DNA of 20,667 nt, taken from a virus. Position 1 is the first letter of the stretch. The number at the start of each line of letters is the position of its first letter. The stretch spans positions 1 to 20,667 of IMG/VR virus record IMGVR_UViG_3300033144_006271, one strand, 5' to 3'. Of this stretch, positions 18,289-19,569 are shown in pieces. The translations under genes and the position numbers were made by a program. The notes under the pieces were generated by a model, which saw nothing but the letters and a program-made list of their open reading frames with translations, was not told the origin of the DNA and did not search any database.

Positions 18289-18669
18289 ATGGAAGATGTA
18301 GTTATAAGAGAAAACGAAAAAGTGGCGTACAGGGGAAATCTGCCGGCAGTATTCAAGAACAGCAATATGAACTGCCTTGCTCTTGATAAATGCTCGTCTG
18401 AATCCAGACTTAAAAAGGGTATTTATCCTCTTAAAGTGGTGAAGCCTGACTACAATTCCACCACGCACAGAATTAATGACTTCATCGATGAAGTTGTAGA
18501 CGATGTTAATATCCAGACCTTTATCGTCAGGCCACTCACACAGGAGGAGCTGGACAAGAGAACGGTGCTGGAATACAGACAGAAAATCGAAGCGGAAAAA
18601 GAAATTATGGCAATCAAGAGCCTTATTGCCAAGGGCGAACTGCCGGAGGATTATGGCACCCTAGCATAG
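18289..18669 (+). CDS. small tail-fibre-associated protein, unknown function
   Basis: A protein of 126 residues preceded by AGGAGGG at 18278-18284 (spacing only four bases). The first ~80 residues are mixed alpha/beta (KKGIYPLKVVKPDYNSTTHR, INDFIDEVVDDVNIQTFIVR). The end is a charged helix (EELDKRTVLEYRQKIEAEKE) that could be a coiled coil. It is clearly AT-richer than the head genes. Its place at the end of the fibre module is where fibre chaperones or assembly proteins are often found, and the final coil fits that, but I do not recognise a domain. Confidence 0.55.
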   Translation: MEDVVIRENEKVAYRGNLPAVFKNSNMNCLALDKCSSESRLKKGIYPLKVVKPDYNSTTHRINDFIDEVVDDVNIQTFIVRPLTQEELDKRTVLEYRQKIEAEKEIMAIKSLIAKGELPEDYGTLA

Positions 18670-18810
18670 GAAGCGGACAGTATTCCTTGGAGATGCGACC
18701 TCCAAAAACCCCGTAGAGATCACGGGACGGGATGACCCGCTACCATCCGCACACCCAGACAGCGGAAAACATAGCAGGGTTACTTCCCAAAAGCAACTGG
18801 GAGGCAAAGC
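18670..18810 (+). ncRNA. hairpin-rich leader of the dam gene (candidate structured RNA)
   Basis: This gap contains no ORF but five possible stems in a row. They are TTGGAG/CTCCAA (18687-18705), CCCGT/ACGGG (18710-18726), CGGG-ATGA-CCCG (18728-18739), TCCGC/GCGGA (18746-18766) and CTTCCCA/TGGGAGG (18783-18804). The last stem holds the ribosome binding site GGGAGG (18799-18804) six bases before the dam ATG. The layout is that of a regulated leader: upstream fold plus an SD-sequestering hairpin. I do not recognise a known riboswitch or RNA family in it. The pairs were found by eye, and the individual stems are short. Confidence 0.4.
18783..18804 (+). promoter_or_regulatory. hairpin covering the dam ribosome binding site
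   Basis: CTTCCCA (18783-18789) pairs with TGGGAGG (18798-18804), seven pairs including one G-U, with an eight-base loop. The 3' arm is the Shine-Dalgarno sequence of the gene starting at 18811, so folding would block translation. Confidence 0.5.
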
Positions 18811-19569
18811 ATGAACAGTCCATTGGCGTACATAGGAGGAAAATCAAGGCTATCTGAAGCGATTATTAAAATGATACCCGAACATCAGGCATATTGCGAG
18901 GTGTTCGCCGGTGGAGGGTGGGTATTCTTCAGAAAAGAACCATCTAAATACGAGACAATTAATGATTTTGACAGCGACCTGGTTACCTTTTACAGGGTGC
19001 TGCAAAATCACCTTGAAGAATTTTTAACGCAGTTCAAGTGGTTGCTTTCATCGAGGGAGTGGTTCGAAGATTGGAAGCGTCAACAGGAAGCGGGCGGTCT
19101 GACAGATATCCAGCGGGCGGCAAGGTATTACTATTTACAACGGCACTCATTTGGCGGACGCGTGCGTAATCGGACGTTTGGTGTAGGTCAACTATAACTG
19201 CCCAGAATCAACCTCCTGCGGATCGAGGAGGAGCTCTCGGCGGTTCACCTCCGACTGGCCAGGGTGACAATAGAAAACCTTCCCTGGCAGAAGTTCATGA
19301 CACGTTACGATCGGCCGCAGACATTCTTTTATTTAGATCCTCCATACTGGAAAGCGCCGGTTTATCAGCACAACCTGGAGTTGAAAGATTATCAGGAGAT
19401 GGCGATTATTTTATCTGGGGTTGAGGGTAAGTTCATATTGAGCATTAACGACCTTCCGGAGATCCGGGAGATTTTTGGGACATTCAATATCAAACCCGTA
19501 ACCTTAAAATACACCGTTGCAAAGGAAAAATCCACAGTAGGGAAAGAGCTTTTGGTGAGCAATTTTTGA
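18811..19569 (+). pseudogene. Dam-type DNA adenine N6-methyltransferase with in-frame TAA
   Basis: A D12-class adenine methyltransferase of about 252 codons split by one in-frame stop, TAA at 19195-19197 (codon 129). The first half has the SAM-binding start SPLAYIGGKSRLSEAIIKMI and EVFAGGGWVFFRKEPSKYET; the second half has the catalytic DPPY at codons 176-179 (FFYLDPPYWKAP) and a normal C-terminus. Both halves are in the same frame and well conserved up to the stop (RNRTFGVGQL, stop, LPRINLLRIEEELSAVHLRL). The intact enzyme would methylate adenine, probably to protect phage DNA, at the right-end position where Mu has its DNA modification gene mom. The truncated first half lacks DPPY, so it should be inactive unless the stop is read through. 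A sequencing error is possible. Confidence 0.8.

Follow-up and report, generated by a model that had tools for sequence, protein, structure and literature searches.

Phage DNA methylases help to evade host restriction, and, to our knowledge, what is known about the timing of these enzymes comes mainly from the mom gene of phage Mu, whose message is opened by Com. Translational riboswitches, such as those of the SAM-II, SAM/SAH, and preQ1 types, sequester the Shine-Dalgarno (SD) sequence of the gene they control. The leader analyzed here, located upstream of a phage dam gene, has in common with them a structured domain, an element that masks the SD, and two mutually exclusive folds, but it differs from them in that it finds no sequence or structure match in Rfam, it precedes a phage gene, and ligand binding is only a candidate property. 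A further family, D12-methyl (RF02950), is linked by its name, as the leader is by its position, to genes of D12-class DNA adenine methylases, but it is a separate family with a model of 64 positions. In Mu, the zinc-ribbon protein Com binds the mom mRNA beside a translation-inhibition structure and exposes the start of the gene (PMC6483171). The leader resembles this system in that the mRNA of a late DNA-modification gene hides its own start signals, but there is no com gene in our case, and a four-way cloverleaf with a competing helix stands in place of the short hairpin that lies beside the translation-inhibition structure of mom.

The dam leader and its buried ribosome-binding site

The window, i.e., the whole stretch of DNA analyzed, is an entire IMG/VR record of 20,667 nt that comprises the right portion of a Mu-like prophage, with an apparent host MFS transporter gene at its end. 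The ORF preceding dam stops at 18669 and the ATG of dam is at 18811, leaving a leader of 141 nt (18670-18810), which is the gap size that the initial annotation had given. That annotation had also called it the largest gap after 349; this holds approximately, although a longer stretch, from 12135 to ~12436, precedes the tape-measure gene unless the small ORFs found there are genes. The 126-aa ORF located 5' of the gap matched nothing in Pfam or PHROGs, and searches of viral contigs and phages returned no relatives of it. A com gene of the Mu mom type (PF10122) was found neither upstream in the operon of the window nor in the gap.

The dam gene of the window is interrupted by an in-frame stop codon (Table 1), not mentioned in the initial annotation, at a position where its relatives have a residue, within GPMHRPRI. 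The gene is full-length (~250 codons) in 15 of its 16 nearest relatives, the remaining one being cut by the end of its contig, and the stop may be a true mutation or an assembly error. Because of this stop codon, the control exerted by the leader may be vestigial in the window phage, the leader copy itself being intact as RNA. A DNA similarity search with the dam region yielded coding matches only. The nearest dam proteins are 67-79% identical to that of the window, and most of them carry a different, strikingly conserved leader, which we have named type A, the leader of the window being type B.

The folding energy of the region 18660-18840 was -54.1 kcal/mol versus -44.2 +/- 4.0 kcal/mol in shuffled sequences (z -2.5; 3 of 200 as low). 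The initial annotation had seen in the gap five successive hairpins, the last of them hiding the entire SD. The arrangement has to be redrawn, since the fold that covaries is a cloverleaf in which P1 encloses P2, P3, and P4, and the SD hairpin comes after it. The masking of the SD was corroborated: its mean unpaired probability in the window was 0.03, versus 0.43 after shuffling the sequence 5' of it, and thus the start signals lie within RNA structure as in Mu mom. In 49 related leaders, the SD was unpaired with a mean of 0.14 versus 0.33 when the upstream sequence was shuffled (Wilcoxon p 4e-10), and the pairing between SD and anti-SD was stronger within a leader than between leaders (p 0.007; p 0.006 in a thinned set).

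Table 1. Features of the dam leader and the dam gene in the window
Feature	Coordinates	Strand	Remarks
P1 5' strand, GCGGACAGTA	18673..18682	+	Partner 18741-18750; conserved CA/CA internal mismatch; covariation in relatives
P2 hairpin, TTGGAG / CTCCAA	18687..18705	+	
P3 hairpin, CCCCGT / ACGGG	18710..18726	+	Most variable helix of type B, with the strongest covariation
P4 hairpin, CGGG-AUGA-CCCG	18728..18739	+	Nearly invariant
P1 3' strand, TACCATCCGC	18741..18750	+	Covariation, swap test
Switch strand, ACCCGCTA	18735..18742	+	In P4/P1 in the cloverleaf, otherwise in the alternative helix with 18772-18780
UAKCA motif region, TAGCAGGGT	18772..18780	+	Partner in the alternative helix; similar motif in sister leader types
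SD-sequestering hairpin	18783..18804	+	CTTCCCA 18783-18789 with TGGGAGG 18798-18804
R1 covariance model match (type B dam leader)	18669..18779	+	95.3 bits; window included in the model
Shine-Dalgarno GGGAGG	18799..18804	+	6 nt 5' of ATG 18811
dam, D12-class DNA adenine methylase, PF02086	18811..19569	+	In-frame TAA 19195-19197; 128 + 123 codons

No intrinsic terminator or attenuator was detected in the leader. Some open frame is present in 29 of 50 leaders, which is not unusual for ~150 nt, and non-triplet indels alter the spacer lengths among relatives while the pairs are kept; on these two grounds a conserved ORF in the gap was rejected. Neither is the gap a gene that is intact in relatives, a possibility that had been raised with the initial annotation.

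Rfam 15 gave no match in the window at gathering scores, in agreement with the earlier impression that no known riboswitch or RNA family is present. A permissive scan of the window (E<=10) returned only SNORA7 and Guanidine-II at chance level, and at the loci of the relatives only tRNAs were above threshold. Lacking any Rfam match, the SAM, SAH, ribozyme, and D12-methyl families were rejected. D12-methyl (gathering score, 57 bits) did not match at E<=10 the window, a type A leader (L008), or a consensus-like type B leader (L146), nor did it match the leader places of two genomes that carry six leaders, where its E<=10 matches lie elsewhere and below the cut-off. The leader belongs to a large and apparently undescribed RNA family placed before DNA-methylase genes in many phages. 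Judged from sequence comparison, we rate it as a new family of a known kind, the cis-regulatory leaders, unusual in how it combines switch, place, and spread.

The type B family, its sister types, and the genes behind them

The type B leader was first recognized by its resemblance to the leaders of two other contigs (L131 and L132), whose dams are merely 46-49% identical to that of the window. Two DNA patterns derived from this resemblance retrieved 37 and 52 viral contigs, and nearly all the true type B copies found in this way are located directly 5' of D12 dam genes. Forty-two type B leader cores, including that of the window, were aligned (alignment A3), and the consensus shows P1 enclosing P2, P3, and P4, with the UAKCA motif and the SD hairpin 3' of the cloverleaf. 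The stems of these homologous leaders, for which the initial annotation had proposed a covariation test, do covary: 86.5% of the cells of the 25 pairs are paired, and the score was 0.140 versus 0.059 in shuffled alignments (0/500), and at most 0.057 in a slid-partner control that keeps relatedness. The search patterns fixed parts of P1, P2, and P4, so the constancy of these helices in the fetched sequences is partly by construction; most double changes fall in P3, which was fixed by no pattern. The changes in P1 among relatives are U-A to C-G, C-G to U-A, and G-C to C-G.

A covariance model built from the 42 rows (R1) matches the window over model positions 1-113 of 113 with an E-value of 1e-23, a match that is not independent because the window is one of the rows (the E-values of R1, and of R2 below, are rough). 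In an RNA-only search of ~400 genomes, R1 found 11 places, nine of them directly before a D12 dam (L204, L206-L213). Another place (L205) precedes a 252-aa gene without Pfam match, which is itself preceded by a ParB/N6-N4 methylase gene, and at L214 there is no gene immediately 3'. The SD hairpin is intact in the type B leader of L205 (1501-1612, - strand). In L209 the UAKCA motif and the SD hairpin are absent and the type B cloverleaf runs straight into the SD and dam, a natural deletion of the switch part. A truncated type B element with no dam start behind it (51.8 bits) is found in L181 (1433-1547, - strand), possibly a rearranged or chimeric contig.

Covariation is even stronger in type A, with double changes in 24 of 33 pairs (score 0.422 versus 0.159). 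Its covariance model (R2) found, in an RNA-only search, 26 places in 20 of 291 genomes; dam stands behind 25 of them and a broken dam remnant behind the remaining one. The SD is not buried in type A leaders, where the start codon, and not the SD, may be the candidate target. In these leaders (L008 2351-2512 and others), the 5' arm of P3, GGCUGUUCAU, is complementary to the dam start region, AUGAACAGCC; this pairing was better within leaders than after swapping (p<5e-5), and the start codon was not significantly freed when the type A cloverleaf was forced (p 0.38). A single chromosome of Desulfosarcina widdelii (NZ_AP021875) contains four prophage dam copies (L101, L104, L107, and L108), each with a type A leader of its own.

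Some dam leaders of intermediate type are matched by R2 (L137, 38.7 bits; L099, 34.5 bits) and others by R1 (L134, 38.4 bits; L138, 25.8 bits; L119, 24.4 bits). Used unfiltered on isolated phages, R2 matched the slot before dam or com in UMP151 (26.1 bits), B3 (19.6), phiHAP-1 (18.0), KS9 (17.3), MuM16-1 (16.6), and VP882 (15.9); each score is modest when taken singly, and the top seven matches are all on the sense strand in this slot. R2 also matched the slot 5' of com in com-dam phages from IMG/VR (L069, 27.3 bits; L090, 20.9 bits; L049, 19.5 bits). An alignment of 24 proteobacterial phage leaders of the dam/com slot (A7) has double changes in 13 of 14 consensus pairs. The P2 loop of type A and proteobacterial leaders has the conserved form GC-NNN-AAC, a candidate recognition or tertiary-contact element.

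The isolates were reached by covariance models only; a BLAST search with the leaders had no hits in isolate phages, and its plasmid matches were short and mostly in tssF. Isolate phages of unrelated groups (L242, L244, L248, L249, L251-L253) have a gap of ~127-155 nt before dam; neither R1 nor R2 matched the dam gap of Bacillus phage ZY1 or Sinorhizobium phage Aussie. Altogether, the leader family precedes dam genes of phages in Desulfobacterota, Pseudomonadota, and others, and is present in the isolates VP882, phiHAP-1, B3, UMP151, and KS9. From the shared topology, place, and UAKCA motif, and from the bridging matches, we infer that the leader types are of common descent, with convergence as the alternative.

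The slot before dam is also used by com. Of 126 dam loci, 22 have a Com-like zinc-ribbon ORF adjoining dam or overlapping it; the four of these ORFs that were scanned belong to PF10122, the Mu-like Com family, and phage B3 is annotated as com-dam. The presence of com or the leader before dam or com suggests that this slot serves to control the translation of DNA-modification genes, either through RNA structure alone or with Com as well. The functional precedent of Mu mom invoked in the initial annotation is therefore closer than claimed, as com precedes the same dam elsewhere and a related leader precedes com.

Leader and gene do not always share their kin. In a tree of 81 dam proteins, that of the window falls inside the group with type A and intermediate leaders (99*), but its leader is of type B, which suggests module exchange. 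The type B leader is also present in a separate dam lineage (L131, L132, and L144). In L202 (6257-7698) and L166 (9809-9958), the gene behind type B is a DAM-like/GNAT fusion (PF22555 + PF22559), whose frame is broken in L166; in L202, a ParB-like gene comes next, together with an ORF that by eye resembles an EcoRI-type methylase. In L201, type B precedes a Zn-ribbon ORF that has an N6/N4 methylase behind it. Since it accompanies several dam lineages as well as a few other genes, type B appears to be a portable regulatory module, and this recombination of leader and gene argues against control by one particular enzyme.

Two mutually exclusive helices

The coevolution of the paired strands was analyzed by comparing pairing energies within leaders with those obtained after exchanging strands between leaders, relatedness being handled by thinning only. 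In 16 type B leaders thinned to <75% identity, this swap test was positive for P1 (p 0.0009), P3 (z -8.3, p<5e-5), the SD hairpin (p 0.006), and also the alternative helix (p 0.00015). The same held for P1 (z -5.4) and the alternative helix (p 0.0008) in 14 thinned type A leaders, and for both helices in the proteobacterial leaders, either with all 24 (z -8.8 and z -4.1, respectively) or with 18 after thinning (z -7.4 and p 0.0001). To guard against bias from hand-picked segments, the proteobacterial test was also run on alignment columns, together with a negative control, in which the P1 5' strand was combined with the same downstream segment and gave p about 0.85-0.86. A fixed-column test of the type A alternative helix was not significant, but the register-free swap tests were positive, a difference that is explained by the varying register of this helix. 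The P1 3' strand has two pairings that coevolve in three alignments, as is characteristic of a two-state switch.

The alternative pairing is available in all three groups, i.e., type B, type A, and proteobacterial leaders, and the minimum-energy fold of the window leader contains it. In type B, the alternative fold is on average ~9 kcal/mol more stable than the cloverleaf (38 of 41 leaders). Energy prediction thus does not give the cloverleaf as the ground state, and the two-state picture rests on comparison, not on energy. Conserved pairs that are not chosen by energy would be expected of a state that is stabilized by a factor or selected kinetically. The mean SD exposure was 0.26 in the forced cloverleaf versus 0.14 in the alternative fold, and 0.01 versus 0.02 in the window, and this small difference makes the assignment of ON and OFF states weak.

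A putative switch that times DNA methylation

On these comparative grounds, we consider it probable, at roughly three chances in four, that the gap, as the 5' leader of the dam mRNA, works in cis to switch translation by means of two exclusive folds. The proposal of the initial annotation that dam is controlled post-transcriptionally by a structured leader is supported by the burial of the SD in the 49 leaders, the covariation, the coevolution of the SD hairpin, and the association with methylases in RNA-only searches. As the comparison shows, the conserved parts of this leader are the cloverleaf, the UAKCA motif, and the terminal hairpin that buries the SD. The strand shared by P1 and P4 can also pair with the UAKCA segment in a second helix that excludes the cloverleaf and coevolves independently. 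A factor binding to the cloverleaf (a small molecule or a phage or host protein), or the order of folding during transcription, would select one of the folds, and the chosen fold would determine the accessibility of the ribosome-binding site. DNA methylation would in this way be held back until the right stage of infection, which is the job of Com for mom in Mu. As a weak guess, the energy-favored alternative fold would be the OFF state and the factor-stabilized cloverleaf the ON state.

Regarding the nature of the factor, the cloverleaf might be the aptamer of a riboswitch in which a metabolite (SAM, SAH, a nucleotide, or another signal of the infection state) selects the fold, a possibility that we regard as real but doubtful. 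The multi-stem junction, with near-invariant letters in the junction and in P4, the two exclusive coevolving helices, and the SD hairpin as expression platform are in keeping with it. Moreover, type B precedes genes as different as a D12 dam, the DAM-like/GNAT gene, and the Zn-ribbon ORF with its N6/N4 methylase, and a shared ligand fits this better than the control by one enzyme. However, no SAM, SAH, or other riboswitch of Rfam 15 matches the leader, and the gene behind the L205 copy has no recognized methylase domain.

The factor could also be an RNA-binding protein, i.e., a Com-like phage regulator, a host protein, or the methylase itself, that opens or closes the ribosome-binding site, which is conceivable rather than probable. 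Com does open a translation-inhibition structure in the mom mRNA of Mu (PMC6483171), com genes adjoin or overlap dam in the 22 loci mentioned above, and several com genes have a related leader before them. Against this, no com gene occupies the slot where the leader is of the window type, and control by the D12 enzyme alone fails to explain the presence of the element before unrelated genes.

It is improbable that the element works as a DNA site (operator, recombination, or packaging) or as a self-cleaving or independent RNA, the burial of the SD being incidental. Self-cleaving ribozymes are enriched near genes of Mu-like phages (PMC10085705), and the L214 copy has no gene immediately behind it, but no Rfam ribozyme family matches. 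In addition, pairs and not letters are conserved, with G-U pairs and double changes, nearly all copies are sense-oriented at a short distance 5' of a start codon, and the complementarity to the SD coevolves. Finally, it is very improbable that the gap is the remnant of a gene or a plain spacer in which a hairpin arose by chance, even though the dam of the window is itself broken, given the 95-bit model match, the covariation, and the relatives, none of which has a gene in the gap and whose non-triplet indels leave the pairs intact.

In a broader reading of the cis-acting switch, which we put forward tentatively and as a close call, the leaders would form a new class of bistable regulatory RNA that is present in dam-encoding phages of several bacterial phyla, and before com in com-dam phages, senses a signal, times DNA methylation, and is portable between unrelated DNA-modification genes. 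Since its two exclusive helices coevolve, a switch is predicted, and every member of the family supplies the exact compensatory mutations. As isolated phages carry the leader, the signal that would time the modification of phage DNA is directly testable.
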